Shown in pieces: positions 28,136-55,508 of a stretch of DNA of 64,000 nucleotides. The DNA lies in NCBI RefSeq assembly GCF_026013645.1, contig NZ_CP110224.1, positions 1,798,001-1,862,000 on the forward strand, in the 5' to 3' direction. This DNA is from Virgibacillus natechei (lineage in GTDB: Bacteria > Bacillota > Bacilli > Bacillales > Amphibacillaceae). Made by a program: the position numbers and the translations under genes. Within the stretch, counting starts at the first letter, position 1, and each line of letters begins with the position of its first letter. The notes beneath the pieces are model-generated. The model did no database searches. It was given only the letters and a program-made list of their open reading frames with translations, and had not been told where the DNA came from.

Positions 28136-28372
28136 ATGAACACAATATGGGTTGTATTAATAGCTATAGCAGCATTAATTGCTGGTGTTGCGCTTGGGTT
28201 TTTTATCGCAAGAAAATATATGATGAATTATTTGAAAAAGAATCCACCAATCAATGAGCAAATGCTGCGTACAATGATGATGCAAATGGGACAAAAACCA
28301 TCACAGAAAAAAATTAATCAGATGATGCGTTCAATGGAAAACCAAAATCAATCTGATAAAGGAAAAAAATAA
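28136..28372 (+). CDS. yneF: YneF, UPF0154 membrane protein
   Basis: This 78-residue protein has one N-terminal membrane helix ([19 protein letters not shown]) and a cytoplasmic Met/Gln/Lys-rich tail containing [16 protein letters not shown], typical of UPF0154. Its function is unknown. GGAGG precedes the ATG. It is the last chromosomal gene before the prophage; its transcript ends in the hairpin at 28456-28503. Confidence 0.92.
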
Positions 28373-28455
28373 CGCAATATGCTGTTATGCCAACCTTTAT
28401 AAAGCTATAATTAATTTTTTTCATCACTTAAAACTTGATCCGATTGATTTTTTAG

Positions 28456-28503
28456 AACCACTTTTTCTGCTAGGAAAGATAAAGCAGAGAAGGTGGTTTT
28501 TTT
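28456..28503 (+). terminator. yneF terminator overlapping the integrase start
   Basis: Bases 28456-28471 pair with 28483-28498 over 16 bp (two G-U pairs, both of the kind that forms only in plus-strand RNA), followed by seven T residues (28497-28503). The 3' arm contains AGAAGGTGG, the integrase ribosome site. The left attachment junction probably lies in or next to this symmetric element. Confidence 0.85.
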
Positions 28504-29407
28504 GTTGTTATTAGAAGATGTTTTAGAAGAATATTACTATCACTGTTTAGCAAGTGGATTCACAGATAAAACAATGATCAACAAAAATCAGGAATATAAG
28601 CAACTTAACAAATTCATTATCGAGGAAAGACAAGTAACAGAATTAGAATCTATCACACATCACGATTTAAAAAGCTATATCAGATCAAAGCAGATGAGTG
28701 GACTTCAACCATCATCTATCGTATCGATGTCAAAGCAAGTGAGAGCATTCTTCAGTTGGTGTGTAAAAGAAGAATATATACAGATTAATCCTATGGATAA
28801 AGTTACGCTTCCTAAAGTTGGTACAAAGATGCTTACTGGATATACAACACAGGAAGTCACAACGATGATCAATTGCTTCAACAATAAAGAATATTTAGAG
28901 ATACGTAACAAGGCTATAGTCTCATTAATGGCAGATTGTGGCTTACGCTCAATTGAGATCAGGAGATTCACTCATTCATCTATTCACGACAATTTTATAT
29001 TGATCAGTGGAAAAGGAAACAAAGAGAGAATAGTCAATCTCAGCTCTATCGTCAAGAAAACACTGATCAAGTATGAGCGTGTGAAAAAGCAATATTTTAA
29101 AGGAAAAAATGTCCCATACGAGAATTATTTTCTGAATTATCGTGGGGAAGAGATGAGTCATGTTGGCATTCACAATCTAGTTAAAGAAGCTGGCAGACGA
29201 GCAAAAGTTAAAGAGGCTAGACCGCATAAATTTAGGCATTTCTTTGCTGTTCAGAGTTTGTTGAATGGGATCGATATTTATAGTTTATCTAAGTTGTTGG
29301 GACACTCAGAAGTGAATACAACTGAGCGCTATCTCACTAGTCTCAACGTAAAGGATTTGCTTGAGGATTCAGTTAAAACTAGTCCATTGACTAATATGAA
29401 AAAATAA
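28502..29407 (+). CDS. int: Phage tyrosine integrase
   Basis: It catalyses site-specific integration and excision. An N-terminal SAM-like core-binding domain covers about residues 1-95. The catalytic domain has Arg149 (CGLRSIEI), a Lys in GKGNKERIV, the H-x-x-R box His242/Arg245, His268 (LGHSE) and the nucleophile Tyr277. I start at TTG 28502, seven bases after AGAAGGTGG; TTG 28505 and GTG 28493 are alternatives. The SD lies inside the 3' arm of the upstream terminator, so transcripts reading in from yneF would both stop here and hide the SD. Confidence 0.93.
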   Translation: MLLLEDVLEEYYYHCLASGFTDKTMINKNQEYKQLNKFIIEERQVTELESITHHDLKSYIRSKQMSGLQPSSIVSMSKQVRAFFSWCVKEEYIQINPMDKVTLPKVGTKMLTGYTTQEVTTMINCFNNKEYLEIRNKAIVSLMADCGLRSIEIRRFTHSSIHDNFILISGKGNKERIVNLSSIVKKTLIKYERVKKQYFKGKNVPYENYFLNYRGEEMSHVGIHNLVKEAGRRAKVKEARPHKFRHFFAVQSLLNGIDIYSLSKLLGHSEVNTTERYLTSLNVKDLLEDSVKTSPLTNMKK

Positions 29408-33823: not shown

Positions 33824-34756
33824 ATGAGCAATACATACGAGGAAATTATAGAAATATTGAATTATAGAGAACAAGAAAAAATACACTTTATGCCCAATGA
33901 AATATTTGAGGATTTGCAGACAAATTTATCTAAGAGTCCTCATATTACATTTGCGTATAGTTACTATTATTTAATTAGTTGGCTATATAGAAATGCCAAA
34001 TATGGTACACAGAGTATAGATGTTGCAACGATTAAGCAACTATTAGGATACAGCCCAACCACCAAAACAATCAATCATATCATCAAGAATGGTGGTGTAT
34101 TGGATTTGTTGGGATATACAGAAACAACTAGTAATTATCCAATAGCTTGGGGAATGGATGAATACAATGATCCTGAATTCTTCTTGATTGATGATGCAGA
34201 TTATTTCATGAAGAAAGAAATAAGAATGGAAAATGGCAATAGGTTTACTGCGAAATATCCAATTAAGCATCTTCATATCAATCAAGAAGATTATGAGGAT
34301 GAGATGAAAACTGGTGTATTCTATGATGTTAGTAATACTCATATGATTGACTTTGAGACATTTATACATTGTATGAGTATAGAAAAATTAGGAGTTACAG
34401 GCTTCTATTTATATGGCTTCTTAAAGAATAAAAATCAGATATATGGTGAGGGATATGATGTTCCTTTGCCTAAGTTATGCGAAGAGACTCAGCTATCATA
34501 TCAGTCATTAGTCAGCTACTTAGATGCTCTGAGAAAATACAACCTTATCGATGTTGTACATAATCAAGATTATTATGCGCCGGGCTTAGAGGATGAATAT
34601 AGGAAAGCTAATACATACATAACAAACGATCCAATTAGATTTACTTTCATAGAACAAGGATATAAGAAGATGAATGTTAAGACTTATGATGAACATATCA
34701 AGATAATTTCTAAGAAGAAAAAGAAGGTTGCATTTGGAGAATTACCATTCAATTAA
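33824..34756 (+). CDS. Winged-helix phage protein, possible replication initiator
   Basis: In this 310-residue protein the region near residues 205-240 (LPKLCEETQLSYQSLVSYLDALRKYNLI) has winged-helix character, and the N-terminal half (SKSPHITFAYSYYYLISWLYRN) resembles plasmid/phage initiator or DnaD-like proteins. The C-terminus is basic (KKKKK). A dense array of direct and inverted repeats starts ten bases after its stop, as expected for an initiator next to its origin. No family assignment is certain; a transcription regulator is the alternative. Confidence 0.7.
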   Translation: MSNTYEEIIEILNYREQEKIHFMPNEIFEDLQTNLSKSPHITFAYSYYYLISWLYRNAKYGTQSIDVATIKQLLGYSPTTKTINHIIKNGGVLDLLGYTETTSNYPIAWGMDEYNDPEFFLIDDADYFMKKEIRMENGNRFTAKYPIKHLHINQEDYEDEMKTGVFYDVSNTHMIDFETFIHCMSIEKLGVTGFYLYGFLKNKNQIYGEGYDVPLPKLCEETQLSYQSLVSYLDALRKYNLIDVVHNQDYYAPGLEDEYRKANTYITNDPIRFTFIEQGYKKMNVKTYDEHIKIISKKKKKVAFGELPFN

Positions 34757-35130: not shown

Positions 35131-37869
35131 ATGGCTAACTTAACGAATCAAGTATTAGTATACTCAGTTTCAACAGATGCATTTTTCAATAACGAGGAAA
35201 ATCAAATTGGCAGCAAGCTAATGGATCTACGTATAAAAAAGAATGAGCTATTGTCTTCCGAAGAGAATACAGGTGAGGTTGATGATCTACTCAAAGATGT
35301 CAACGAATCGATCAACACTTTAAGCAAAGAATTAAATGTTCTACTGGATAACAATAAGGATATCAGAACACTCAGACGTGACCATCTATATACATATAAT
35401 AAAGAACAGAAGAAAGAAGTCAACAAATCTAACAAAGTTGTAGCACTGTTTGAATCATCATTTACTAGGCTACTAGGATTGAGTACAAAGGATGTAAATG
35501 AAAGTGTTGTTATCGTCAAGGCTTACCATTATAAGGCTCTTGAGAATCTTATTAATAAAGGGTTCTACTACGGTGATGATAATGAAGAGTTTGTGTTTTG
35601 GTCATCAAGTGCTGGCCAAATGAAAAATAAAAAATGTGTTTTCGTCAAGAAGACAATTTTGGATCAGAAAAGGGTTAATGATCAAGGTGTAGAATATACA
35701 GCCAAGGATTCTCTAATCGCTGGACTGGATTGGGGTAGGATCAATAACACTAAGTTTAATAAAGGTGAAGATGTTGAATATGGCATCAATATTAATAAGT
35801 ATCTGGCATATTTAAGTCTACAGAATACAGCAACTGTTAAATGGGATGATTTTGATATAAATCAAGTTATAGTTGTTCCTGACTTAGAGATTGATGTTAC
35901 TGATACAGTTGAATTTATCGACAGAGATACGTATCAGATACATCCACCAGAAGAGAAAACATTGCCTATGAATGTATCTGATGGAGTTGGATTAATTTTA
36001 CCCACTTTAGCTGATAAGAATTTTCAGTTTAGGATTCCGTTTGGGAAAGGACTTTTATCTCCGTATGACTTCTTGGCACATGCTAAAAAGGTTGGTAATT
36101 ATGAGGTTGTAGATGTTTGGGGAGAAACACATCATTTAGTTAACGATAACGTGAAAATTATATTATCTGCAAGCCAATTAAAGACTTGGAAATATTATAA
36201 CAGTATGGAAGAATATCGTGAGTTGTTCCGGAAGTACGAGTGTGAAGCCGGCAAATGCAACGAAGAAGTTGTGACAAAGGATATTCATCTTAACTATCAG
36301 TACATACAGAGTTTAGACATGGAGTTTGACGAGCTTGAAAAAATTGCTGAGAAAACAAATGATGATATTAAGCAACTAGGAAACAAGAAAAATGTAATGT
36401 TACGGTCATTAGGAGCGACAGAGGAAAATGAGAAGAAGAATAATTTCCAACAAGCATTGTTAATGTATGACAACTTGTTAAATGATTCCCATGCTAAAGA
36501 AATGATCAAAAGTAAGAAGTCATCAATGGTTAAGGATGCTAAATCAGGAACGTTGAGAGCAGATGGAAAAAGAATGTTTATACTGCCTGATTTGTATGCT
36601 TACTGTGAGTTTTTACTAACAGGTAATAAGAATCCCGAAGGTTTGTTAAATAAAGGTGAGGTGTATACCAAGAAGATTAAAGCAGGTACTGTTGATATTC
36701 TAAGATCACCACAGCTCTACAGAGAGCATGGGATACAGAAGAATACTAGAGGTAGTGATTTGAGCAAATGGTTTAACACTGGTGCTATTTATATTAACAA
36801 TAAAAATTTTCTCGCACGTTTGCTTCAATGTGACTTCGATGGGGATCAAGTTAATGTGGTCAACCCAAATACTAAATTTGTAGAAGTTGCCAAACGTAAC
36901 ATGGAAGCTGATAAGATTGTTCCATTGTACTATGAGATGTCTACAGCGCCTTTACAGACGTTATCTGAGAAGTCTATATACACTAGTCTCATATCCAGTT
37001 TTGGGTCTGCCATAGGGTCGATTAGTAATGATGTGACGAAGGTGTGGAACTCGGGAAAACTGGACAAGGATAAACAGGATGCAATAAAATTTTTGACCAT
37101 GTATAACAACTTTATGATAGATTTTAGTAAGACTAATTTCTTGCCGAAGCCAAAAGGTGATGCTAAGAGACTGATACGACAATACACTAAAGCCAAGTCT
37201 CCATACTTTTTCCAGTGGGCAAAGGATAAAGAAGTATTCGAAGATAAAGTTGTTGCTGAGACAGAAAAGGATGTAGATGAAAATGGCAAAGAGTATGACA
37301 AAGTGATTAGTGAGTACATGCCAGTTATGAATATGCTAGAAGATATTATTGTAGATAAAAGGATTACATTCAAGAGTGTGGCCGACACATTCGATTACAC
37401 TAAGCTGATGAGTGTGGTTAATTTTAAAAGTGAGGGCAAGGATCTAGACAAAGCTATTGTCAGTGCCTATAAGAAAATCAACAGAAGAAAAAAGTCTATG
37501 ATCGATCAAAACTCTGAGACAGATAAGGAAAATAAGTATGTGTACGCTGCTAGAGCAATGAAGGATGAGATAATGGATGCCGCAAGAGAAATAGAAGAAG
37601 ATGTGTCTGATGTTTATGTTGCTGATTGCTTGATTTATCATTTTCATGTAACAAATAAGAATGGCAATAAGAAGACAATGTGGGAAGCATTTGGAGATAT
37701 TATAGTGACAAATTTAAACTATAAGCTGAATGGAATTAAGATTTGTCAGTATTGTAGTGATGGATTTAAGGCTAAGAGTCATAAGAATAAGTATTGTTCT
37801 GATGCGTGTTCTAAAGAAGGAGAGAAGATTATTAAGAAGGTTAAGAGAAAAAAAGCAAAAAATAATTAA
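35131..37869 (+). CDS. YonO-like single-chain RNA polymerase
   Basis: The protein has 912 residues. DFDGDQV at residues 568-574 matches the catalytic metal-binding loop of multisubunit RNA polymerase beta-prime (DFDGDQM). It is preceded by VDILRSPQLYREHG (about residues 525-540), in the place of the R-x-P block that precedes the catalytic loop in cellular and QDE-1-like polymerases. An SQLKTWKYYNSMEEY block (about residue 348) resembles the corresponding region of the two-barrel RNA-dependent polymerase family. Overall size agrees with SPbeta YonO, a known phage DNA-dependent RNA polymerase. The C-terminus adds a zinc-finger-like Cys872/875/889/893. It most likely transcribes phage genes. Polymerase activity is inferred from motif, size and order only. 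Confidence 0.75.
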   Translation: MANLTNQVLVYSVSTDAFFNNEENQIGSKLMDLRIKKNELLSSEENTGEVDDLLKDVNESINTLSKELNVLLDNNKDIRTLRRDHLYTYNKEQKKEVNKSNKVVALFESSFTRLLGLSTKDVNESVVIVKAYHYKALENLINKGFYYGDDNEEFVFWSSSAGQMKNKKCVFVKKTILDQKRVNDQGVEYTAKDSLIAGLDWGRINNTKFNKGEDVEYGININKYLAYLSLQNTATVKWDDFDINQVIVVPDLEIDVTDTVEFIDRDTYQIHPPEEKTLPMNVSDGVGLILPTLADKNFQFRIPFGKGLLSPYDFLAHAKKVGNYEVVDVWGETHHLVNDNVKIILSASQLKTWKYYNSMEEYRELFRKYECEAGKCNEEVVTKDIHLNYQYIQSLDMEFDELEKIAEKTNDDIKQLGNKKNVMLRSLGATEENEKKNNFQQALLMYDNLLNDSHAKEMIKSKKSSMVKDAKSGTLRADGKRMFILPDLYAYCEFLLTGNKNPEGLLNKGEVYTKKIKAGTVDILRSPQLYREHGIQKNTRGSDLSKWFNTGAIYINNKNFLARLLQCDFDGDQVNVVNPNTKFVEVAKRNMEADKIVPLYYEMSTAPLQTLSEKSIYTSLISSFGSAIGSISNDVTKVWNSGKLDKDKQDAIKFLTMYNNFMIDFSKTNFLPKPKGDAKRLIRQYTKAKSPYFFQWAKDKEVFEDKVVAETEKDVDENGKEYDKVISEYMPVMNMLEDIIVDKRITFKSVADTFDYTKLMSVVNFKSEGKDLDKAIVSAYKKINRRKKSMIDQNSETDKENKYVYAARAMKDEIMDAAREIEEDVSDVYVADCLIYHFHVTNKNGNKKTMWEAFGDIIVTNLNYKLNGIKICQYCSDGFKAKSHKNKYCSDACSKEGEKIIKKVKRKKAKNN

Positions 37870-37878: not shown

Positions 37879-37933
37879 TTGACAAAATTTCAATCTGTTA
37901 AAATACCGATCAATACTATGTTTTAACAGATTG
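37879..37933 (+). repeat. TTGAC-AATCT-GTTAA element copy 2 with 13-bp inverted repeat
   Basis: TTGACA is followed by CAATCTGTTAAAA (37891-37903), which is exactly inverted at 37921-37933. It is the first of several signals in the gene-free stretch 37870-38465. Confidence 0.6.
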
Positions 37934-38049
37934 AGATAATCGACTATATAGGGGAGAGCAGACAGAAGATTAATAGATCACAAAGAGTTTATAAGTCTGC
38001 TTTTCCTTTTATTATTTTTAACTAAAATTGTACATAGGTAATTTTATTA

Positions 38050-38258
38050 TATCACAGGTTAAATAACATTACAAGCAAAATATCAAAATTAATCAAAAGA
38101 AATTTTACAGGAGTTTCACTTCCTTTAAACGTGAGCTTTAAAATACATACTGACAGAACCCACCACGCCTCTTCACAATGCGTACCAAGGTGGGACTATT
38201 TATTTTTTATTTAAATTTATTTATACGATTCCGTAATTAAATATTATCACAGGTTAAA
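38050..38258. repeat. Direct repeat TATCACAGGTTAAA
   Basis: Exact 14-bp copies at 38050-38063 and 38245-38258, both in very A/T-rich DNA, flank the terminator at 38159. No reading frame of note is present. Confidence 0.55.
38159..38206 (+). terminator. Intrinsic terminator in the 37.9-38.5 kb gap
   Basis: CCCACC pairs with GGTGGG, with an inner ACGC/GCGT helix, followed by a T-rich tract. Confidence 0.7.
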
Positions 38259-38395
38259 AGTAAAGTAAAGAGGTAAATTAAAATAAATTAAAATAGTACA
38301 AGTGTTCTTATTATGTCGTTGATTCAGCGACTATAAATAAGTGGATTCCCCGATTAAACCACGCAACATTTCCCCGAATTTAATAGTCAATAACT

Positions 38396-38465: not shown

Positions 38466-39038
38466 ATGGAAAAGACAGTAGAAAATTTTAGAGACGATTT
38501 AATCATAGTAGATGGGCAGGAACTATATCCTATTCCAAATTTCAGCAGGTATTATGTTGATCTTGATGAAGGCAGAATATGGAATAACAAATCTGAAAGA
38601 TGGATAACTGCCAATCCAAATTATCTTGGATACTGTTACGCAAGAGTGAAGGCAGATGACGAGGGAAAAAGTAAATCTATATCAGTACATAATTTAGTCA
38701 TGATGGCTATGACAGGAAAAGATAAGACGATGTGGAGATCACAAGGACTAGAAGTGCATCACATAGATAATGATACGAAAAATAACGAAGCGACCAATTT
38801 AATGCTTGTCTCTAGAAGTCAACAATATCAAGACCCAATCACAAAAATTACGCTATCAAATCGAAGTAATAAGCGATTAACTAAAATTGATGTGATTGCT
38901 ATTAAAACTGATTGGATTGAATGGGAAGGTAGAAAAGGCGAGTTTTATAGTAAGTGGGCAGATGAGTTAGGGATGCATACACGAGGAATACAAGATGTCA
39001 TTTTGGGTAACACATGGAAGAATGTTGAGGTTGAATAA
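38466..39038 (+). CDS. Free-standing HNH homing endonuclease with NUMOD4-like domain
   Basis: In this 190-residue protein the N-terminal part (YPIPNFSRYYVDLDEGRIWN) resembles NUMOD4, which precedes HNH nucleases. The HNH core has HHIDNDTKNNEATNLMLVSRS (about residues 98-118). The C-terminal helix-turn-helix-like region (SKWADELGMHTRGIQDVI) fits DNA recognition. No intron or intein is evident around it, so it looks like a free-standing, selfish nuclease gene placed between early modules. AGAGGAG precedes the ATG. Confidence 0.88.
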   Translation: MEKTVENFRDDLIIVDGQELYPIPNFSRYYVDLDEGRIWNNKSERWITANPNYLGYCYARVKADDEGKSKSISVHNLVMMAMTGKDKTMWRSQGLEVHHIDNDTKNNEATNLMLVSRSQQYQDPITKITLSNRSNKRLTKIDVIAIKTDWIEWEGRKGEFYSKWADELGMHTRGIQDVILGNTWKNVEVE

Positions 39039-41014: not shown

Positions 41015-41229
41015 TGAGTAAAATTGATAAGTTGGTAGTTTGGCATGTGAGCTTAATAATAGGATTACTGATGATAATAGGAATGATATCTATCGTTAAT
41101 ACTATATTCGGGATCAGTGTGAGTTATACAGTTGCAGCTATTGTGTATGTAGTTGTTAAGATTATTGATTCGGTTGTGAGTAGTCTGAGGGAACGGTCAC
41201 AGTCTGTGAAGGTGGTAAGCGATGAGTGA
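41014..41229 (+). CDS. Small two-helix phage membrane protein
   Basis: A 71-residue protein with two hydrophobic helices (about residues 12-32 and 36-55) and a basic tail. It is coupled to both neighbours by overlaps. Function unknown; far from the lysis cassette, so a holin role is not suggested by position. Confidence 0.65.
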   Translation: MSKIDKLVVWHVSLIIGLLMIIGMISIVNTIFGISVSYTVAAIVYVVVKIIDSVVSSLRERSQSVKVVSDE

Positions 41230-41594
41230 GCCAGATGATTAGTAAGAAGCCATTGAAGCCATGCAATAAGTCTGGGTGTGCTGAATTGGTACGTGATGGA
41301 GCATATTGTGATAAGCATAAAAACGATAGAGTTAAACAGTATGATAGGTATGAACGGAATCAAGAGAGTAGGAAGTTTTATCAGAGCAGCAATTGGAAGA
41401 AGGTTAGAGATTACATAAAGGCTAGAGATGATGGATTGTGTCAGTGGTGCTTAAAGGATAAGAAGATAACTAAGGCTGATGTTGTCCATCATATTATAGA
41501 GTTGACTGAGGACATGAGTAAGGCATTAGAGCCTAGTAACTTAGAGTGTGTCTGTCATTCATGCCACAACGAACATCATAGTAGTAAAGGATAA
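41226..41594 (+). CDS. HNH endonuclease of the packaging module
   Basis: Cys-rich N-terminus (CNKSGCAELVRDGAYCDKH) and HNH core CQWC...ADVVHHIIELTED...SNLECVCHSCHNEHH. HNH proteins of this kind encoded beside terS are known to act with the terminase in cos cleavage of HK97-type phages. GTG 41226 (ATGA-type overlap) or ATG 41235 may be the start. The 122-residue length fits the family. Confidence 0.9.
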   Translation: MSQMISKKPLKPCNKSGCAELVRDGAYCDKHKNDRVKQYDRYERNQESRKFYQSSNWKKVRDYIKARDDGLCQWCLKDKKITKADVVHHIIELTEDMSKALEPSNLECVCHSCHNEHHSSKG

Positions 41595-42042: not shown

Positions 42043-42117
42043 ATAGAATATCGATAAAATAAAATCATAAAAAAGTAAAAAGTTGGAAAATAAATTTGAA
42101 AAAGAGGATCGGGGCTT

Positions 42118-42215
42118 GGTAGAAACTTTATTTAGATTTCGCTCTAGACCCCCTGCCAATCAACTGTGCAACTTTTTGAGGTTTTTAATAGGGGCGGTTT
42201 CAAAATTTTACAAAA
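42118..42215. other. Candidate cos region upstream of terS
   Basis: Locally GC-rich islands in A/T-rich DNA: GACCCCCTGCC (about 42148-42158) and TAGGGGCGG (about 42189-42197) can pair through CCCCT/AGGGG. The position between an HNH gene and terS is where cos sites of HNH-using siphoviruses lie. The exact nick sites cannot be read from sequence. Confidence 0.4.
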
Positions 42216-42232
42216 AAGTAGGTGAAAATCAT

Positions 42233-42613
42233 ATGGAAGAAATTAAACCACCAACATTTTTAAACGCAGCTACAAAAAAGAAATATATTCAAGTAGCTCA
42301 AATGTTGATGGAAGATGGGAATTGGAAAGATGGTGATGATATAGCTCTGTCAGCTTTATTTGCTAATTACCAGAGATGGATTCAAGCAGAACGAGCCATC
42401 AAGAAAAATAAAAGTTTAACATTTACCACAGACTCAAATTATTCTCAACAAATACCAGAGATATCAATCGCAAACAATGCCATGAAGTCGATGCTATCAT
42501 TCATTAAAGAGTTTGGCTTATCACCAAAAGAGCGAAAAAAATTAAAGGATACATTAATGGGGGATGGGTCGAGTGGTGGAGATGATGAGTTAAACAACAT
42601 GATTGTAAAATAG
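42233..42613 (+). CDS. terS: Terminase small subunit, P27-like
   Basis: It binds the packaging site and hands DNA to the large subunit. The 126-residue protein (MEEIKPPTFLNAATKKKYIQ... and a C-terminal SPKERKKLKDTL helix) resembles the P27 small-terminase family. I choose ATG 42233, preceded by AGTAGGTGA; the frame is open 150 bases further upstream, but that part encodes an Arg/Pro-rich stretch over the putative cos region and has no ribosome site. Confidence 0.82.
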   Translation: MEEIKPPTFLNAATKKKYIQVAQMLMEDGNWKDGDDIALSALFANYQRWIQAERAIKKNKSLTFTTDSNYSQQIPEISIANNAMKSMLSFIKEFGLSPKERKKLKDTLMGDGSSGGDDELNNMIVK

Positions 42614-42629
42614 AAAAAGGTGAAGAAAG

Positions 42630-44210
42630 GTGGAAAATAACAAGTATTATTTTGATGAAAATGAAGCAGAAAATGTAATCAAATTTATAGAAAAGTTAAA
42701 CTTACCCAAAGGAAAACAAGGTCAGAAAATTAAATTGTTGCCATACCAGAAGAAAATTATAACAGATTTAATCGCTACTAAACGTGTTAAAGATGATTTA
42801 AGACGTTACAGAGAAGCCTTTATTACAATGGGTAGGAAGAACTCTAAATCATTCATAGTAGCCTGTCTGTTTGTCTATGTGTTATTTACTGACAAGGAAA
42901 CTGGACAGGAAAATATTATAGTAGCCAACTCCAAAGATCAAGCGAACAATATTTATAATATGGTTGAGTTCATGATTAGAACGAATAAAACATTGGCTAA
43001 ACATTGTACAATCGTGAATAGCAGAAGAAAAATCTTAAGGAAAACTACAGATTCCTATATACAAATCTTATCCTCTGATACATCTAAACTTGACGGATAT
43101 AATCCTTATTTTGCTGTAGCCGATGAAACACACGAGGATAAAACAGGTGGCAACAACTATACTAAATTACAAACAGGTATGGGCGCACGTAAACAGCCTC
43201 TAATGATTAGTGTTACAACAGCAAGTAACGGACAAGACGAATATAATACTGAATATAAAAAGTATCAATATGCCTTAAAGGTAATCAATGGTGAAGTAGA
43301 AGATGATTCATTTTATTCAGCTATCTTTGCAGCAGATGATGACTGTAGATTGGATGATGTAGAACAATGGTTAAAATCAAATCCTGCATTAGATACAGAA
43401 GAAGGTGGCTTTAGATCATCGGAAGAGTTGGAAAGGTTATCTAAGCAAGCACTTGCTAATCCAATTGAAGAAGCATCATTCAGACGTTATTACCTTAATC
43501 AACACGTTGTACTGGATAATGAGCAAGCTATCAATATGTCTAAGTGGAAACTCTGTGGTAAAGACTTTGATATGTCATTCTTAAAAGGAAAAGAATGCTA
43601 TGCTGGACTAGATTTATCAATCAAAAAAGACTTCTCAGCATTTGTAATGGTATTCCCAATTGACGATAATTACTATATCGTTCCCCATTTATTCAAGCCT
43701 GCCGATACACTTCAAACTGATGAAAAATTAGATAGATTCCCTTATGTTAAATATGCTAATCAAGAACGTTTACATGCTACAAAAGGTGATCATGTTAACT
43801 TTAGATATGTTCGACAAATCATAAATGAATTAAGCATGGAGTATGATATCAAACAGATTGCATTGGATAAATTTGCTAGTGGTGGCATTGCTTCAGATTT
43901 AATGAATGATGGGCATATTATGGTAGATACTAAACAAGGATTCTATTTAAGCCCAACTATATCAGACTTCTATGAGTTGCTATTTGATCAAAAGCTAGTA
44001 CATAACAACAATCCTGTTATGAATTGGATGGCTCAGAATGTTGTCGCAAAGGAAAATCCAAACGGAAAAATTATGTTTGATAGGGAGAAGGCTAGTTTTA
44101 AGATTGATGGAATAATAGCTTTGTTGATGGGATTGAATAGAGCTGTGTTAAGTCAGAAAAATAGTGATTATGATTCAAACGAAGCAATTGATGACTGGCT
44201 TGATATGTAG
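42630..44210 (+). CDS. terL: Terminase large subunit
   Basis: This is the ATP-driven DNA packaging motor and nuclease. The variant Walker A GRKNSKS is at residues 68-74 and the Walker B/catalytic Glu in VADETHED at about residue 163-170. A C-terminal RNase-H-like nuclease has GLDLSIKKDFSAF. Length 526 and the motifs place it in the Terminase_1 group of HK97-like phages. It starts at GTG 42630. Confidence 0.95.
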   Translation: MENNKYYFDENEAENVIKFIEKLNLPKGKQGQKIKLLPYQKKIITDLIATKRVKDDLRRYREAFITMGRKNSKSFIVACLFVYVLFTDKETGQENIIVANSKDQANNIYNMVEFMIRTNKTLAKHCTIVNSRRKILRKTTDSYIQILSSDTSKLDGYNPYFAVADETHEDKTGGNNYTKLQTGMGARKQPLMISVTTASNGQDEYNTEYKKYQYALKVINGEVEDDSFYSAIFAADDDCRLDDVEQWLKSNPALDTEEGGFRSSEELERLSKQALANPIEEASFRRYYLNQHVVLDNEQAINMSKWKLCGKDFDMSFLKGKECYAGLDLSIKKDFSAFVMVFPIDDNYYIVPHLFKPADTLQTDEKLDRFPYVKYANQERLHATKGDHVNFRYVRQIINELSMEYDIKQIALDKFASGGIASDLMNDGHIMVDTKQGFYLSPTISDFYELLFDQKLVHNNNPVMNWMAQNVVAKENPNGKIMFDREKASFKIDGIIALLMGLNRAVLSQKNSDYDSNEAIDDWLDM

Positions 44211-44408: not shown

Positions 44409-45680
44409 ATGAATCTATTTGGAAGAGAAATAAGAAGTAACAGTAAAACAAGAACAACATTTACATCTGATGATGCAGCATTTGCAAAGGCATTAGGAAT
44501 TGATATAGACGGTATCTCAGCAGATAAAGCAAAGGAAGCAACCTTTTATACTTGCTTAAGAATACTGTCTGATGCAGTCTCTAAATTGCCCTTAAAGTTA
44601 CATCAGTCAAGTGATGAAGGTACAACAAAAGAGAATAAACATTACCTATATAATCTACTTAAATTAAGACCGAATCCAATTATGTCCAGTTCTACATTTT
44701 GGAAAACAGTTGAATTCCAACGCAATTATTTTGGCCATGCGATTGTAGCTATTGATTATCACAAGTTTGGTAAAGATGCAGGAAAAGTTAAATCTTTAAT
44801 TCCTCTCGATATGTCCACTGTAGATATTTGGATCGATGACAGAGGAATATTAGGCAGTGAAAATAATGCTATTTACTATATTTATATTGATCAAAGAGGA
44901 CATCAGTATAAATTTAAAAATAGTGAAGTGTTGCATTTCATCGGAATGACTAAAGATGGTATGCAAGGAATGGCAATCAAAGACTACTTAAAGACACTTG
45001 TTGAAAATGCTCAAGCTAGTACATCGTACACAAATAACTACTGGAAAAATGGTTTACATAGTAAAGGGATAATTAAATATATCGGTGATTTAGATGAAGG
45101 AAAACAGAAACAGCTACAGGAAAAAATGAGCCGTATTAGTGGGGGGATTGCCAATAGTGGAAAAATAATGCCATTACCCATAGGCTTTGATTATCAATCA
45201 ATTAGCACGAGTATGGCAGATGCTCAATTTACCGAGCTATCACAATTAAACATAACACAGATTGCTTCAGCATTTGGAGTGAAGATGCATCAACTAGGAA
45301 GCCTCGAAAGATCCACAAATAGCAACATAGAACATCAAAATAAAGAGTTCTATGTTGATACGTTACAACCAATTCTCACAAATTATGAACAAGAATTAAC
45401 TTACAAACTACTCACTTCTAATGAGGTTAGCAGCGGTTACTTTTTCAGATTTAATGTTGACTCAATCCTGAGAAGCAACACAAAAGAAAGAGCGGAGTAT
45501 CTCACGACATTTGTTGAAAAGGGTGTAATGACACCAGCAGAAGCTAGAAAGCAGATTGATCTACCTCATTTAGATGGATCAGATCAATTAATTGTTAATG
45601 GTAGCTACCTCAGCTTAGAAGATGCTGTTAACGGTGCTAACTATGATAGAACAGGCTTGGAAGGGGGTGAAAATGAATGA
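44409..45680 (+). CDS. Portal protein, HK97 family
   Basis: It forms the 12-subunit ring at the capsid vertex. The family pattern is present: an N-terminal CLRILSDAVSKLPLKLHQ, a central SLIPLDMSTVDIW, and the FGVKMHQLGSLERSTNSNIE segment. Length 423 is normal. The gene order terL-portal-protease-capsid supports the call. It overlaps the protease gene by four bases (ATGA). Confidence 0.95.
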   Translation: MNLFGREIRSNSKTRTTFTSDDAAFAKALGIDIDGISADKAKEATFYTCLRILSDAVSKLPLKLHQSSDEGTTKENKHYLYNLLKLRPNPIMSSSTFWKTVEFQRNYFGHAIVAIDYHKFGKDAGKVKSLIPLDMSTVDIWIDDRGILGSENNAIYYIYIDQRGHQYKFKNSEVLHFIGMTKDGMQGMAIKDYLKTLVENAQASTSYTNNYWKNGLHSKGIIKYIGDLDEGKQKQLQEKMSRISGGIANSGKIMPLPIGFDYQSISTSMADAQFTELSQLNITQIASAFGVKMHQLGSLERSTNSNIEHQNKEFYVDTLQPILTNYEQELTYKLLTSNEVSSGYFFRFNVDSILRSNTKERAEYLTTFVEKGVMTPAEARKQIDLPHLDGSDQLIVNGSYLSLEDAVNGANYDRTGLEGGENE

Positions 45681-46273
45681 GTGAGAAAGAAATTAGAATG
45701 TTGGATAGCCAAATAGAGATAAGAACAATTGGCGAAGAAGATGAGAAAAAGGATGTCATTGTAGGCTATGCCTTGCGCTTTAACACCTACTCAGAGGATT
45801 TAGGAGGCTTTATTGAGACTATCGAGCCTAGAGCACTAGATCAAGCTAGAATGGATAATGTGGTAGCTTTAATCAACCACGATAGTTCACTGGTATTAGG
45901 TAGATCAACAAGTGGTACTTTGAAACTTGAAACTGATGAGTTTGGATTAAAATATACTATTGATCCACCAAATACTTCTTATGCCAGAGATTTAATGGAG
46001 TCTATGAAACGTGGTGATATTAGTCAATCAAGTTTTGCATTCTCGTTAGATTATGCCGATGACGGTGACGAAAGTTGGGCACACGATAGGGATAGAGATA
46101 TCTACATACGCACAATTAAGCGATTCAAGAGTATCTCAGACGTATCTGTGGTGACTGTTCCTGCCTACAGTGATACTCAAGTAGTAGTTGCTCAGAGGTC
46201 TTTAAATGAACACAAGAGCGAGCTACAAAATGAAATAAACAAACGGAAAATGTTAATCGAGTTAGAGCTATAA
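45677..46273 (+). CDS. Prohead protease, HK97 U35 type
   Basis: This serine protease removes the capsid delta domain during maturation. The catalytic His lies in ALINHDSSLVLGRS and the Ser region in DISQSSFAFSL; both correspond to the U35 family. Length 198 is typical. Translationally coupled to the portal. A terminator-like hairpin spans its stop codon. Confidence 0.93.
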   Translation: MSEKEIRMLDSQIEIRTIGEEDEKKDVIVGYALRFNTYSEDLGGFIETIEPRALDQARMDNVVALINHDSSLVLGRSTSGTLKLETDEFGLKYTIDPPNTSYARDLMESMKRGDISQSSFAFSLDYADDGDESWAHDRDRDIYIRTIKRFKSISDVSVVTVPAYSDTQVVVAQRSLNEHKSELQNEINKRKMLIELEL

Positions 46274-46287
46274 GCTCTATTTTTTTA
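46263..46287 (+). terminator. Terminator-like hairpin between protease and capsid genes
   Basis: TAGAGC (46263-46268) pairs with GCTCTA (46274-46279), followed by eight T residues. The stem is short, so partial termination is likely. Confidence 0.65.
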
Positions 46288-46326
46288 TGTCAAAAATACA
46301 AAACAATTTTAAAGGAGACAAAATAC

Positions 46327-47457
46327 ATGGACAAATTACAAGAACTACGTCAGCAACTAGCAGCAAATAAAGAAGAGGTACGAGGACTTCTCAACGACAA
46401 CAAAGTAGAAGATGCAGAAGCAAAAATGGAAGAGGTACGAAACTTAGAGAAGACGATTGAATTGCAAGTTGAGCTGGACAAAGAAGAAGAGCGTGAAATG
46501 GACAACAAGTTTAAAGAAGAAAAGCGTGAAAATAAAGGAGACAGCAAAGTGGAAAAAAGAGAAGCATTTTTAAAAGCAGTGCGAGGAGTTAAATTAACAG
46601 ATGAGGAACGTGCTCTAGTAGTGACAAGTCCAGATGAAGATGGTGGTTATCTAGTTCCTGAGACAGTATCTACTACTATTGAAGAGTTGAAACGTAACTA
46701 CAAATCAGCAAAATCATTAGTCGATGTAGTACCGACAAGCACGAAGGCAGGCTCATTCCCTGTTGAAAAAGGTGGAAACAACACTGAGCTAGTTAATTTT
46801 GATGAGGATAATACTGGTTTAGCAGAACAAACACCTAAATTTACAAATGTTGAATATAGTGTTGCTGCTTACGGTGCTATCACTCCACTTTCTAATTCCT
46901 TCCTACAAGACGAAGCAGGCAACTTCATGAGCTATTTGAATCGTCTATTCGCTAAGAAAGCTATTAAAACTGAGAATAGCAAGATTTTTGCAGCATTGAA
47001 ACAAGGTAAAACAGCTAAATCAGTTACAGATATTAAAAGTATTAAAGCATTGTTCAATAAAGATTTAGATGCAGCGATTGCTGAGAATGCACGTGTGATT
47101 ACTAACCAGACTGGCTTCCAATTCCTAGATGAAATGGAAGATAAGCAAGGTCGTCCACTATTACAGCCAAATCCAGCTAATGCTACTCAGAAGCTATTGC
47201 AAGGTCGTGTAGTAGAAGTGTTCTCCGATAAGGAATTGCCTAACGTTTCAGGAAAAGCGCCTATCTATGTAGGCTCATTTACCGATGCAATCAAAATGTT
47301 TGATCGTGGAGTTTACGAAGTGGCTATTTCTAAGGAAGCAGGATTTACTAAGAACCAAACAGTGGCACGTGTAATTGAGCGCTTTGATGTGAAGAAAGCT
47401 GATGCAGATGCTTACGTATACGCTACTCTAGCTGAGCCTGCTGAACCTACAGAGTAA
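46327..47457 (+). CDS. Major capsid protein, HK97 fold
   Basis: An N-terminal scaffolding (delta) coiled coil covers about residues 1-80 and is expected to be cut off by the protease. The HK97 capsid domain follows from about residue 95 (TSPDEDGGYLVPETV...). GVYEVAISKEAGFTKNQ near the C-terminus is typical. Length 376 is normal. AAGGAGA lies upstream. Confidence 0.95.
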   Translation: MDKLQELRQQLAANKEEVRGLLNDNKVEDAEAKMEEVRNLEKTIELQVELDKEEEREMDNKFKEEKRENKGDSKVEKREAFLKAVRGVKLTDEERALVVTSPDEDGGYLVPETVSTTIEELKRNYKSAKSLVDVVPTSTKAGSFPVEKGGNNTELVNFDEDNTGLAEQTPKFTNVEYSVAAYGAITPLSNSFLQDEAGNFMSYLNRLFAKKAIKTENSKIFAALKQGKTAKSVTDIKSIKALFNKDLDAAIAENARVITNQTGFQFLDEMEDKQGRPLLQPNPANATQKLLQGRVVEVFSDKELPNVSGKAPIYVGSFTDAIKMFDRGVYEVAISKEAGFTKNQTVARVIERFDVKKADADAYVYATLAEPAEPTE

Positions 47458-47474: not shown

Positions 47475-47747
47475 ATGTTGGAATTGGCTAAGGAGTACAT
47501 AAGAATAGATGGAAGTGATGAGGATTTAACTATTCAAATGCTCATTGATACAGCTAAACAATATATCAAATCAGCAACTAATGTTGACTTCACAGAGAAC
47601 AATCATGCTTACAAAATGGTTGTTCTCTTATTGGTTGTACGCTGGTATGAAAATAGAGGTATGGAACAGGCAGATGAATTAGATTTTACTCTATCTTCTA
47701 TGTTGCTTCAGATCGAGCTAGAAGGTGTAAAAGATGAAACCAATTAA
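47475..47747 (+). CDS. Head-tail connector, gp6-like
   Basis: A helical 90-residue adaptor (LELAKEYIRIDGSDEDLTIQ...YIKSATN) that matches the gp6-like DNA-packaging connector family in pattern. It overlaps the next gene by 14 bases and follows the capsid gene, the standard place for connectors. Confidence 0.85.
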   Translation: MLELAKEYIRIDGSDEDLTIQMLIDTAKQYIKSATNVDFTENNHAYKMVVLLLVVRWYENRGMEQADELDFTLSSMLLQIELEGVKDETN

Positions 47748-48072
47748 TCCTGCAAAATATCGTAATCGCATTTCATTTCAACGTGAAGATGAGTATCAAA
47801 CTGATGAAGGGCATTGGGTAACTGAATGGATAGATGTAGCTGAAATAGGCAAAGTTTGGGCTGAGATTAAGAGTGTCAGAGGCAATGAATTTATCATGGC
47901 TGGAGCTAACGCAGTAGATGTCACAGCACGTATAACAATTAGATACAACAAGCGTGTTACCGATGATATGAAAATTAAATACGGTGATCGAATGTATGAT
48001 ATTACCTTCATAAATAATCTCGAAGAAAGAAATATCGAGCTAGAAATTCTAGCTAGTGAGATACGACAATGA
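47734..48072 (+). CDS. Head-tail adaptor/joining protein
   Basis: The 112-residue protein (MKPINPAKYRNRISFQREDEYQ... and EIKSVRGNEFI, YGDRMYDITFI) matches the Phage_H_T_join (SPP1 gp16-type stopper) pattern. It overlaps neighbours on both sides. Confidence 0.9.
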   Translation: MKPINPAKYRNRISFQREDEYQTDEGHWVTEWIDVAEIGKVWAEIKSVRGNEFIMAGANAVDVTARITIRYNKRVTDDMKIKYGDRMYDITFINNLEERNIELEILASEIRQ

Positions 48073-48458
48073 GCAGAATGAAAATGGAAATTGAGGGCTT
48101 TGACGAGCTTGTTCAACACTTTGAGAAGATGGGCAATGGAGCTAAAAGGTTAGAAGCAGAAGCCTTAAAAGAAGGTGGAGAGGTAATAGCAGAACATCAA
48201 AGAAAAGGTGTTAATCGTTCTGCTAAGAATCAGCCACACATTGAGGATAATATCGAAGTGGGAAGAGTGACAAATACTCAAGAAGGCTCAAAGGTGATTA
48301 TCAGACCCAACAAAAAGGTAAGATGGAGAGCAAAGTTTTTGGAGTATGGTACTTCTAAGATGCCTCCTAAACCTTTTATAGAAAGAAGCGGAGAATTAGG
48401 ACAGGCAGAAGCTTATGAATTAATGCAGGCTAAATTTGAGGAGGTCATCAATGACTAA
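48069..48458 (+). CDS. HK97 gp10-family tail completion protein
   Basis: The 129-residue protein contains EIEGFDELVQHFEKMG and the FLEYGTSKMPPKPFIERS motif that is highly characteristic of the gp10 family. It overlaps the preceding gene by four bases. Confidence 0.92.
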   Translation: MSRMKMEIEGFDELVQHFEKMGNGAKRLEAEALKEGGEVIAEHQRKGVNRSAKNQPHIEDNIEVGRVTNTQEGSKVIIRPNKKVRWRAKFLEYGTSKMPPKPFIERSGELGQAEAYELMQAKFEEVIND

Positions 48459-48834
48459 ATTTAAACACTATGATGCTCAAGTAGAATTACTGCAAGCATT
48501 GAGAAGTAACGAGGAATTGACTAGATTAGTCGTTGGCGGCTTCCACAATATGGTTGCTAGACAGACTTCTAGTTTTCCTCGAATTGTATACACAGAAATT
48601 AAGAATGCTGATGAGGATTTTAAGGACAATGAGCTGAGTATGGCAGTTGTCAATTTCCAAGTCAGTATTTTTTGTGATGAGAAAACAATCATTGATCAGA
48701 CAGCAATTACAAAGGAAGTTGCTAGGACAATGAGTGAAATTGAGTATCACAAATATGACCAAGAAAATTTATACGAAGAGGATACAGAGTTGTATCACAG
48801 AGCAATGAGATTCACGAAAAATATTTATTTATAA
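48451..48834 (+). CDS. Tail terminator-like protein
   Basis: The 127-residue protein sits between gp10 and the major tail protein, which is where the tail terminator (DUF3168 or gpU-like) is encoded. YHRAMRFTKNIYL near the C-terminus fits that group. I use ATG 48451, eight bases after GAGGAGG. Confidence 0.78.
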   Translation: MTKFKHYDAQVELLQALRSNEELTRLVVGGFHNMVARQTSSFPRIVYTEIKNADEDFKDNELSMAVVNFQVSIFCDEKTIIDQTAITKEVARTMSEIEYHKYDQENLYEEDTELYHRAMRFTKNIYL

Positions 48835-48866
48835 AACTATAAAAAATGAAAAGGAATGATTTAAAA

Positions 48867-49463
48867 ATGGAAAACAAAACAAAATTGGTACACGGACTAT
48901 CGGACTTTCACATCGCAATTTTAACAGAGGATGATAAAACAGCAGTTGAGTATGAATCACCTGAGGAGTTGGAGGGAGCAGTTGATGTTAGTGTGAATCC
49001 TAACACTGAAACTAACACTAAATATGCAGACAATGGTGCATTTGGTGTCTTGAATAGTTTGGGGGATATTGATGTTGATCTAACAGCAGTTGATCTACCA
49101 CAACACATTCAAACGAAAATATTCGGTCATGACCAGTCTGGCGATGTTGTATTCAGTAACGTTGCAGACGAAGCATCAGAGTTGGCACTAGGATTTAAAG
49201 CTCAAATCCAAGGTGGCGGACATAGGTTCTACTGGTTGTTAAAAGGTAAGCCAGAATTGACTAATATCGAGCATTCAACTGATGAAGGAACGGTAGAAAG
49301 TCAAGATACACAGTTAACACTGAGGTTTACACCTTTGCGACACAATGGCAACTGGAAAGCACAATTAGACAGCAAAGAAGTTACATCAGCAAAATGGTTT
49401 GAAAATGTTGTTTACGATGAAGAAACTGCAACAGCCGTACAAGGAACTGAAACAACTGAATAA
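48867..49463 (+). CDS. Major tail protein
   Basis: The 198-residue protein resembles the phi13-type major tail tube family: VHGLSDFHIAIL start, EGAVDVSVNPNTET, GFKAQIQGGGHRFYWLLKG and QDTQLTLRFTPLR. I start at ATG 48867 with AAAGGAATG upstream; an earlier ATG (48846) overlaps that site. A terminator hairpin follows the stop codon. Confidence 0.9.
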   Translation: MENKTKLVHGLSDFHIAILTEDDKTAVEYESPEELEGAVDVSVNPNTETNTKYADNGAFGVLNSLGDIDVDLTAVDLPQHIQTKIFGHDQSGDVVFSNVADEASELALGFKAQIQGGGHRFYWLLKGKPELTNIEHSTDEGTVESQDTQLTLRFTPLRHNGNWKAQLDSKEVTSAKWFENVVYDEETATAVQGTETTE

Positions 49464-49472
49464 TAGCACAGT

Positions 49473-49503
49473 AGAGAGTCATTAATTTGGCTCTCTTTTT
49501 TTA
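49473..49503 (+). terminator. Terminator after the major tail protein gene
   Basis: An 8-bp stem (AGAGAGTC / GGCTCTCT, one G-U pair) followed by seven or more T residues. Confidence 0.85.
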
Positions 49504-49534
49504 ATGAAATTTTAACTATAAAGGAGAATGTTAA

Positions 49535-49873
49535 ATGGAAAATTTCACAATCGAACTAAAAATAGATGGCAAGAAAAAGAGATTTACAACACCTGCATTT
49601 GTTAAGGGCGGACTGTTTAGACAAGCGGTAGAAATATCTCAAAGTATAGAAAATGAGGTATTTGATATAAACAAATTTGATGGATATATCCAATTTGTAA
49701 CAGAAGTGTTTGGTGAAAAATTTACAGTAGATGAATTTGAAAATGGGATTGATGGACGTGAGTTACTGAAAACCATATATGCTACAACCTTCTTTGTTTT
49801 AGATCAGGTAAGCACAGCTACCAAGATGCTAGCAGGAGATACAGAAGCAAAGCAAGATGATGGAAAAAAATAA
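49535..49873 (+). CDS. Tail assembly chaperone gpG
   Basis: The 112-residue protein has the RQAVEISQSIENEVFDINKFDGY-type region typical of Firmicutes gpG proteins. In the normal frame it ends at TAA 49871-49873 directly after a run of seven A residues. It precedes the tape-measure gene, its conserved position. It is also the N-terminal part of the frameshift product. Confidence 0.9.
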   Translation: MENFTIELKIDGKKKRFTTPAFVKGGLFRQAVEISQSIENEVFDINKFDGYIQFVTEVFGEKFTVDEFENGIDGRELLKTIYATTFFVLDQVSTATKMLAGDTEAKQDDGKK

Positions 49874-50067
49874 GTCTGGGTGAGTCTGTGAAAGACATGT
49901 ATTCCTCTCTAATTGAGTTGGGCTACACTCAGAATCAAATTGATGAAATGGATATTATCTATCATATGAAATTGTTAGCACATAGAAAAGCAAACAGAAA
50001 AACAAAAGGAAAAGGTAAACAATCGAATCAATCACAAGTCACGATTGATCAAATACCCGGATTCTAA
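49535..50067 (+). CDS. gpGT chaperone made by -1 frameshift
   Basis: A AAA AAA (49864-49870) is in the phase needed for -1 slippage, immediately before the gpG stop. Reading resumes at 49870 as ISLGESVKDMYSSLIELGY... and runs 65 codons to TAA 50065-50067, 22 bases before the tape-measure start. Lambda-type phages make gpGT in this way, and both proteins guide tape-measure folding and tail assembly. Confidence 0.88.
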
Positions 50068-50089
50068 CTTAGAAAGAGGGTGAGAATAA

Positions 50090-51067
50090 ATGTCAAGAGA
50101 TATGGGAATTAATCTCATAGCTAATACGAGTCAGTTTAAATCTGATATGAGCGCTGTTAATAGGTCTATGCGAACGGTTAAGACTGAAATGGAAGCAGCA
50201 AGAAATGAAACAGATGAATATGGAAATAAGATTCAGGATAATGAAACAAAGGTTCAGAGCTTAACAAAGCAAATGGACAATCATAGAGAAAGAGTCAGTC
50301 TACTCGAAAAAGCACATGCTGATTCTGCTGAACAAACTGGTGAAAATTCTAAGGAAACTCAAGAGTTGGAAGCTAGGCTAAACAAAGCAAACAGTGAGAT
50401 GAATAAAACTGAGGGTCAGTTAAAACAAACTCAAGCTGAAATGGAAGAGTTAGAGTCTGCCACTGAAGATGCTGGAATGAGCTTTGAGGAATTTGATCAG
50501 AAATTCCGCGATGTCGGCGGAACAATGCGAAATGTTGGTGGAACAATTGCAGGGGTCTCTGGTGTTGCATTAGCAGGATTGGTCAAGCCTATGCGGGATG
50601 CAGCTGAGGTTGCTATAGACTTCGAATCTCAGATGAGCAGTGTAGAATCTATAAGTGGAGCAACAGGTAGTGAATTGGAAGCCTTAGAGGATCAAGCTAA
50701 GGAACTTGGCCAAACAACAAAATATTCAGCGAGTGAAAGCGCAGAAGGCATGGAGATGTTAGCCCGCGCAGGATTCGATACAAGCGAAATTATTTCCAGT
50801 ATGCCAGGGCTGCTTGATCTAGCTGCATCATCTAATATGGATTTAGGTAGAGCTGCGGATATAACTTCCAATATCATCTCAGGATTTGGAATGGAAGCTG
50901 AAGAGGCAGGTCGAGTATCTGATGTACTAGCAGCAGGAGCAGCATCTGCAAATCTCGATGTGGAAGGTTTGGGAAACAGCATGGCTACTGTTGCCCCAAT
51001 TGCTGAAGGTTTAGGTATAGGCTTTGAAGATTTAGCAGCAGCGACAGGTATCATGGCAGATTCGGGT
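50090..51067 (+). CDS. Tape measure protein, exon 1
   Basis: It encodes the first 326 residues: a helical, heptad-rich start (SLTKQMDNHRERVSLLEKA) and the TMP-domain region (GATGSELEALEDQAKELGQTTKYSASE, FEDLAAATGIMADSG). The normal family sequence continues as I-x-G-x-K-x-G. Exon 1 ends after Gly326 at base 51067 (GGGT), where the group I intron begins; without splicing, translation would stop at 51103. Confidence 0.93.
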
Positions 51068-51169
51068 ATTTTTTTAATGCCCCTTATGCAAGCAATTGCA
51101 TAACGACAATTGAGGAAAATCGGTGAAGGCTAAGGTTATTGGTTTATTAATCAACTCTAATCGGTAGGA

Positions 51170-52024
51170 GTGATTAATATAATAGAAGAAAAAGAGTGTA
51201 GTAAATGTAATGAGATTAAGAGTTTAACAGAGTTTTATAAAGACAAAAACAATAATGATGGTTGCGACTACTATTGTAAGAAATGTCAGAGGGAAAAGAA
51301 AAACAAGTATATCATTACTTGCAAAACGTGTGGGAATGAACATAAAACAGCTAATAAGAAAGTTAAGTATTGTAGTAATAAATGTAAACCTCAAAACGCA
51401 TCACAAAAAATAAAAGTTGAATGTTTTATATGCAAAGATACCAAGGAGATTAAACCATCTCAGAAGCTGGGGAAAAAGCACCATTATTGCTCTGAGAAAT
51501 GTAAGAATAAAGGATATAGTCTACTGTATGCTGGAGAAAACAGTAAAAGGTATAACCAAGTTTCGGTCAATTGTGATACTTGTAAAAAGGAATTTAAAAA
51601 AGTAAAATCGCAATCAGAAACGTATGAGATTAGTTACTGTTCCAATGAGTGTAAAGCAATAGGTCAATCTAAAAGGTTTGCAGGTGAAAATCATCCTAGA
51701 TGGGATAGTTCTATTACCAATGAAGAAAGAATAACAACTAGAAAATACCCTGCATATCACCAATGGAGAAATGACACGTTCAGACGTGACAATTATACCT
51801 GTCAATGTTGCAACGATAGTAAGGGTGGAAACCTAGTTGCACACCACATTTTAAACTACTCCGAACATAAAACCCTCAGAACAGAGTTATCAAACTCTAT
51901 CACCCTCTGTAAAACATGCCACAAATTATTCCATGATACATACGGATACACGAAAAATAACTTAGAACAATTAAATAAATTTATGGATAACACTCAAAAG
52001 AGTGTTATTTTTTATGCTTATTAA
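51170..52024 (+). CDS. Intron-encoded HNH endonuclease with zinc-finger repeats
   Basis: This homing nuclease probably spreads the intron. It carries several Cys-x2-Cys...Tyr-Cys-Ser-x2-Cys modules (about residues 9-35, 48-69, 79-107 and 121-150), then GENHPRW (NUMOD3-like), then an HNH core with CQCC...LVAHHILNYSEH...LCKTCHKLFHDTYG. Length 284. The GTG start at 51170 is uncertain since its GGTAGGA site abuts it. It lies in the loop of the P6 helix, and its stop codon falls inside the 3' strand of that helix. Confidence 0.9.
   Translation: MINIIEEKECSKCNEIKSLTEFYKDKNNNDGCDYYCKKCQREKKNKYIITCKTCGNEHKTANKKVKYCSNKCKPQNASQKIKVECFICKDTKEIKPSQKLGKKHHYCSEKCKNKGYSLLYAGENSKRYNQVSVNCDTCKKEFKKVKSQSETYEISYCSNECKAIGQSKRFAGENHPRWDSSITNEERITTRKYPAYHQWRNDTFRRDNYTCQCCNDSKGGNLVAHHILNYSEHKTLRTELSNSITLCKTCHKLFHDTYGYTKNNLEQLNKFMDNTQKSVIFYAY
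51987..52013 (+). terminator. Terminator hairpin inside the intron ORF
   Basis: A perfect 9-bp stem (ATAACACTC / GAGTGTTAT, AAAA loop) is followed by six T residues, within the 3' end of the endonuclease gene. Confidence 0.75.
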
Positions 52025-55484: not shown

Positions 55485-55508
55485 AAACAATAAGAAAGGA
55501 TTGATTAA

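Follow-up and report, generated by a model that had tools for sequence, protein, structure and literature searches.

The RNA polymerase YonO of phage SPbeta is a studied single-chain relative of cellular RNA polymerases. Forrest et al. (2017; PMC5467207) show YonO to be a processive DNA-dependent enzyme, report that changes in its aspartate (Asp) triad abolish extension and that 37 late genes are silent without it, and place a YonO start at 2225998 of Bacillus subtilis 168 while leaving the promoter undetermined. The sections of the literature that deal with its ancestry relate it to multisubunit RNA polymerases and to QDE-1-type enzymes (PMC5467207, PMC7824862). Here I analyse a stretch of 64,000 nucleotides (nt) from Virgibacillus natechei (the window, whose numbering is used below) in which a yonO gene lies in a small prophage and is followed by E1, a newly recognised, conserved element of about 60 nt that immediately follows the gene, on the same strand. 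The main interest of the locus is E1, which I consider here as a candidate YonO start site; what is unusual about the polymerase is its small-prophage setting.

Element E1 behind yonO

E1 was recognised by comparing the stretch 3' of yonO in 171 loci. By shared genes I sorted loci into an SPbeta type, a small HK97 type and a second small type (the assignment of L072, L077 and L107 to the last depends on a match or two that are weak or short). The consensus of E1, from 34 copies, consists of TAATNGTCTTTAAGGGA, a stretch that varies, CTAATNTACAAA, AAGAG and a final TCCC. The model made from these 34 copies (R1), with the window in the training set, uses sequence only, because RNAalifold gave no consensus pair on the E1 alignment. 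In 122 sources (2.3 Mb) R1 found 49 matches at E<0.01, all behind yonO and on its strand, and none at that level away from yonO. The matches start 29-151 nt after the yonO stop in 47 cases; the two distant ones lie at 1155 nt in L191 and at 2362 nt in L101, and by my reading the former stands behind an inserted gene and the latter behind an interrupted yonO. Sixteen of the 49 matches are copies that had not been used for training; 11 of these belong to the non-redundant set, and the other five are near relatives of training copies.

The R1 search extends E1 over large phages and small phages of HK97 type. When a profile of eight HK97-type copies, window included, was run on 13 loci of the second small type, its best match was correctly placed in six (L114, E 8.7e-5; L025, 3.7e-4; L166, 5.2e-4; L075, 6.7e-3; L020, 0.018; L090, 0.088), four of them at E<0.01. 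As far as these comparisons go, E1 is present in large phages and in two kinds of small phage, and because these phages have different terminases it goes with yonO and not with packaging. The window copy itself is found, at 37934-38007, by a profile of 12 other copies from which the window was excluded (E 9.9e-5; next best E 16), the 12 having been picked by eye from 11 small-phage loci and the SPbeta-type L007.

E1 rose above no gathering score in Rfam, where the only match at E<=1 to touch its edge was a chance-level one on the opposite strand. A loose E1 pattern was set aside as mostly chance, with YonO upstream in nine among the 80 matches listed, and a stricter loop pattern hit seven stretches: four behind YonO, one full E1 in L250, and two, L251 and L252, that I read as chance. 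The window E1 also bears some likeness to a T7-type promoter, which I take to be a coincidence, the T7 polymerase being unrelated.

E1 and the mapped SPbeta start

The published coordinate was located in genome G575 (4,215,606 bp), which matches the SPBc2 (SPbeta) stretch at 100%, and base 2225998 falls there inside GATAATAGTCATTTATGAGGG. Taking the 5' part of the SPbeta E1 and allowing any letter at one position gives the pattern GATAATNGTCAT. The whole genome contains it five times, two of these between yonO and yonK; one of the two, at 2225995-2226006, lies across the published start. Read in reverse, the pattern occurs once. The SPbeta start hairpin recurs within two mismatches in 14 of the 171 loci, the best match on the opposite strand having four mismatches. 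By analogy with this start, I propose that transcription in the window begins near 37938. The literature search, which covered few subscription-journal papers or preprints, yielded no YonO promoter beyond Forrest et al. (2017).

The mechanism would run as follows. Host transcription would make YonO after prophage induction; YonO would start at E1, which directly follows its own gene, and carry on through the + strand genes between 38.5 and 63.6 kb, which would give the late products (packaging, head, tail and lysis) of its own 35.7-kb prophage. By analogy with SPbeta, it is likely that the window YonO transcribes the late genes of its phage. That E1 is the YonO start element I regard as evenly balanced, and for the account taken as a whole, a YonO-family polymerase that starts at E1 and transcribes its own prophage's late genes, I lean modestly towards yes. 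More tentatively, and a shade short of an even chance, E1 may be the missing YonO start element in a broader sense: the polymerase gene together with its own promoter and hairpin leader (GAT|AATNGTC...AAGGGA-hairpin) would be a portable late-gene switch, exchanged among large SPbeta-like phages and small siphovirus prophages of at least two kinds.

Several observations weigh against E1 as the start. The mapped SPbeta start lies 790 bp beyond E1, which is at 2225205 in B. subtilis 168, and not within it, and the likeness of GATAATNGTCAT to the start site was noticed before the pattern was made, so that its rarity is only indicative and carries no formal probability. No R1 match at E<0.01 was found in 73 of the 122 sources, the window included, and the HK97-type profile missed seven of the 13 second-type loci at the right place, some of the seven being near copies of each other. 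The window E1 is weak in general models (E 0.44 with R1; E 0.19 with a joint profile that includes large-phage copies) and reads TAATCGAC instead of TAATNGTC; given its strong score with the small-phage profile, it is best placed, as a divergent copy, in a small-phage subtype. A full E1 occurs in L250 (2747-2925) with no YonO match in the 2.8 kb upstream. Finally, phage BUCT082 has the SPbeta start hairpin as well, yet its YonO shares only 24% identity with that of the window, and the one BUCT082 gap inspected, that behind the gene after yonO, has no E1.

Two side observations belong to these last loci. An open reading frame (ORF) upstream of E1 in L250 looks integrase-like by eye and stands in place of YonO. 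BUCT082 (L009) is of SPbeta type, with its divergent YonO at 3260-6034 and the SPbeta-like start hairpin at 7641, upstream of yonK.

An alternative that I think unlikely, yet well short of negligible, takes E1 to be where the yonO transcript ends, or else a small RNA with a regulatory role, with the late start elsewhere, as upstream of yonK in SPbeta; the hairpin, sometimes with a T-run, would then end or protect a yonO mRNA made by the host. The GGGA 5' side does fold onto the 3' arm as a long-range stem in 33 of 43 copies, the T-rich tail behind the stem in 14 of the 43 is terminator-like and so also counts against a start element, the window hairpin is strong (z -4.2; a separate fold of the window E1 gave z -3.0), and the 790 bp to the mapped start fit this alternative as well. 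What it leaves over are the best-conserved letters, TAATNGTC and the loop CTAATNTACAAA, which lie outside the stem and would be superfluous for a terminator; moreover, the mean fold z is only -0.84 with no consensus pair, and the TAATNGTC part is seen again at the published start. A role in packaging or other phage DNA processing is highly improbable, despite the non-coding place near the terminase genes, since E1 is common to phages with different terminase types and nearly all its matches keep to their short distance from the yonO stop.

The late start could instead be E2 (ACGATWCCGTAATTATAWTTTAWCACA), a motif of about 27 bp that lies 134-379 nt behind yonO in the printed copies, with E1 in another role. 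E2 is tied to yonO: an IMG/VR scan with its core gave 35 viral contigs, of which 31 carry YonO on the same strand, upstream of the site (136-399 nt from the YonO end to E2 in 18 contigs, 1180-2135 nt in 13), three are too short and one lacks it. The window has two copies, one full and one partial, flanking an abiF RNA. Set against this, only seven of 115 non-redundant loci carry E2, albeit from all three phage types (the matrix was built from such sites; besides the window, E2 was noted in L022, L025, L064, L114, L121 and L011), and SPBc2 has none, even though the YonO proteins of SPBc2 and the E2-bearing L121 share 84% identity. E2 is thereby ruled out as a general promoter and is an improbable late start; it may be the site of a regulator.

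The 14-nt repeat TATCACAGGTTAAA was also tried as a shared promoter and rejected: within 3.5 kb downstream of yonO, the 170 other loci offer no match closer than two mismatches, and the five loci that reach this level do so at scattered places. As for the abiF RNA, an AbiF defence system was not found, as there is no Abi_2 gene beside it; the genome's Abi_2 matches are only at 3.03 and 3.08 Mb, and near these two no abiF RNA reaches the gathering score. The lone abiF RNA could be a phage decoy against host AbiF.

The polymerase and its prophage

The ORF at 35131-37869 almost certainly encodes a YonO-family polymerase. It is an uninterrupted frame for a single chain of about 100 kDa, as in the YonO family. 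In the two protein-family libraries used, PHROG 8308 matches residues 4-896 (847 positions, E 2.7e-188) and no Pfam model comes above cut-off; SPBc2 YonO aligns over 97% of the length with 38.0% identity (E 1e-166). Sequence searches of the PDB gave no credible chain, the best match, obtained with the alignment profile, being an annexin (E 0.0033). Relatives occur in 35 of 50,697 phage records, 24 of them covering at least 80% of the window protein, and identity to the 99 aligned relatives is 43% at most. By these measures the protein is a full-length, divergent and new member of a known polymerase family, much as an earlier sequence-only reading had it: that reading's 912-residue single-chain YonO-type polymerase, complete and divergent, is borne out by the intact ORF and by both matches, and the DFDGDQV block (568-574), the RSP (525-527) and the four tail cysteines are where it placed them.

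Residue conservation was followed in alignments of 13 and then 100 sequences, and D568, D570, D572, R525 and P527 are identical in every row of both. The residue after DGD is K in 79 of the 100 rows, whereas the window, with DFDGDQ, is one of three rows with Q, which is also the state of the host RpoC. Only four cysteines occur beyond residue 850 of the window protein (872, 875, 889 and 893), and they are invariant in 13 of 13 homologues; the two exceptions among the 100 rows have, respectively, no tail cysteine aligned and the first only. The sequence-only reading had treated this zinc-finger tail as an added module. That idea is ruled out, because the four cysteines are present in 98 of 100 rows and in SPbeta YonO itself: the tail is a family feature.

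With QDE-1-type RNA-dependent RNA polymerases and with the beta and beta' subunits of multisubunit RNA polymerases, the window YonO shares the D-x-D-G-D motif, and its R-x-P block is as in host RpoC, but neither the PDB search nor the profile comparison gave a significant sequence match. In the latter, hhalign against 30 RpoC barrels set DFDGD on DFDGD with a probability of 0.6% and E 0.1, which is not significant; the link to the multisubunit enzymes therefore rests on the YonO literature. Polymerase activity of the window copy is inferred by analogy with SPbeta YonO. An inactive or re-purposed protein might be suspected from its long branch (1.45 changes per column in the tree) and from its low identity to every aligned relative, but this is very improbable in a protein with an intact frame of 912 amino acids and every invariant residue kept, encoded in a prophage with attachment repeats and a full structural gene set.

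The prophage is bounded by identical direct repeats of 101 bp (28278-28378 and 64026-64126), giving a unit of 35,748 bp, and it carries an integrase, a small early region, YonO, and a one-strand block of HNH, terminase, portal, protease, head, connector, tail (with a tape measure gene) and endolysin genes (Table 1). Judged by this gene content it is a complete 35.7-kb siphovirus of HK97 type and not an SPbeta phage, and the earlier description of a mid-size siphovirus prophage stands. The likeness to SPbeta lies in the single chain, the Asp triad, the Cys4 tail, a yonO that directly precedes the packaging and structural genes on the same strand, and E1 behind the gene; SPBc2, in contrast, is a 134-kb phage, and the window prophage has other terminase and structural genes. 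SPbeta-type surroundings (yonR to yonD, about 130 kb) were not found: none of 10 SPbeta genes was listed as the best match to an ORF of L118, the locus that covers 19.4 kb of the window prophage (E 1e-4).

Table 1. Features of the window around yonO, with positions and the evidence for each.
Feature	Position	Strand	Evidence or remark
Left attachment repeat, 101 bp	28278..28378		identical right copy just past window end
Tyrosine integrase	28493..29407	+	PF00589 1e-24
Gene for a regulator, ahead of yonO (labelled "DnaD-like" by me)	33824..34756	+	phrog_19047 4e-59
YonO-family single-chain RNA polymerase gene (probable), 912 amino acids	35131..37869	+	phrog_8308; SPBc2 YonO
R-S-P of catalytic region, residues 525-527	36703..36711	+	R525 and P527 in 100/100 aligned relatives
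Catalytic DFDGD, residues 568-572	36832..36846	+	D568, D570, D572 in 100/100
C-terminal Cys4 zinc-finger-like tail, C872/875/889/893	37744..37809	+	all four Cys in 98/100 relatives and SPbeta YonO
17-nt inverted repeat I1 (hairpin), yonO stop to E1	37887..37937	+	94% complementary; overlaps first 4 nt of E1
Element E1, GATAATCGACTATATAGGGGAGAG and hairpin; proposed YonO start element	37934..38008	+	leave-window-out profile, E 9.9e-5
E2 first, partial copy (GTAATT...TATCACAGGTTAAA)	38038..38063	+	direct repeat D3, 85% over 26 nt
abiF RNA (RF03085)	38159..38195	+	42.5 bits vs gathering 37; AbiF gene not adjoining
E2 second, full copy (ACGATTCCGTAATTAAATATTATCACAGGTTAAA)	38225..38258	+	E2 pattern; sole match in 159 host-family genomes
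TAATAGTC, possible second start	38381..38388	+	only + match to TAATNGTC after base 28000; weak
HNH endonuclease, first gene past E1/E2 gap	38466..39038	+	PF13392, phrog_59
HNH endonuclease adjoining terminase	41226..41594	+	phrog_144 6.6e-38
Terminase, small (42083-42613) and large (42630-44210)	42083..44210	+	phrog_83, phrog_9
Portal, head protease, major head protein	44409..47457	+	library matches
Connector, tail and lysis genes through endolysin	47475..63615	+	10 ORFs of stretch searched

A relative of the regulator, 43% identical, is likewise upstream of yonO in L029. The attachment repeat covers the end of the coding sequence for a short host protein, presumably yneF by its looks, whose neighbours are transketolase and a ccdA-like gene. 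The presumed late operon contains two 30-nt copies of one stretch, 83% alike, at 39934-39963 and 40429-40458; the second forms a terminator-like hairpin at 40431, which a late-gene polymerase would need to pass.

YonO across phage types

The sequence-only reading had called this a poorly sampled polymerase class, which does not hold as worded: scans for relatives gave 310 confirmed stretches in IMG/VR and, among contigs at one genome per species, 98, with 80 of each listed. The window YonO is the sole match in its genome, two other genomes of the genus have none, and YonO is found in three of 159 family genomes and seven of 397 order genomes, the genome studied here being counted in each. Among the 80 IMG/VR stretches, isolate contigs with YonO are mostly about 100-200 kb and some are about 30-36 kb. 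Small-phage genes are present on four contigs of the latter size (L125, L177, L179 and L184), and three other small contigs (L147, L178 and L182) may simply be cut ones. The HK97-type small loci include L125 (a 33.8-kb contig), L029/L021, L042, L048, L064 and L115; those of the second small type include L011/L026, L073, L074, L177 and L184, several of them with arbitrium genes. In the literature searched I found no description of YonO in a small-phage setting.

Like the window prophage, these small YonO prophages have YonO ahead of the packaging genes, and many of them have E1; they differ in that their YonO proteins are at most 43% identical to the window's and only some carry E2. A quick tree was built from 59 selected YonO proteins, and on it the phage-type labels need eight changes where the minimum is two, which suggests transfer of YonO from one phage backbone to another. 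The window protein clusters with the HK97-type L021 and L125 (98 in the Shimodaira-Hasegawa approximate likelihood ratio test, SH-aLRT), on a long branch whose placement the program flagged as unsure.

Some individual loci are worth recording. L026 (2933-10604) is part of a small Bacillus velezensis prophage (NZ_CP083716) with the arbitrium genes aimR and aimP and a YonO of 967 amino acids. Single genomes hold both a large and a small YonO contig (L127/L177 and L153/L179; IMG/VR 2912874417 and 2923073944), and Cytobacillus kochii AcN7-3 has two YonO loci, L049 and L077. An insert apparently splits yonO into two pieces in Goe11, Goe14, BUCT083, SPbetaL4-L7 (as joined matches suggest) and L101, and the annotation of BUCT083 has a GIY-YIG nuclease gene at this place.

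Should E1 prove to be the start element, the open question of the YonO promoter would become testable with purified YonO and short templates, and the small phages of about 36 kb would be compact models. It would also mean that a phage can swap the control of its late genes by gaining one polymerase and its start site, despite differing packaging and head genes.

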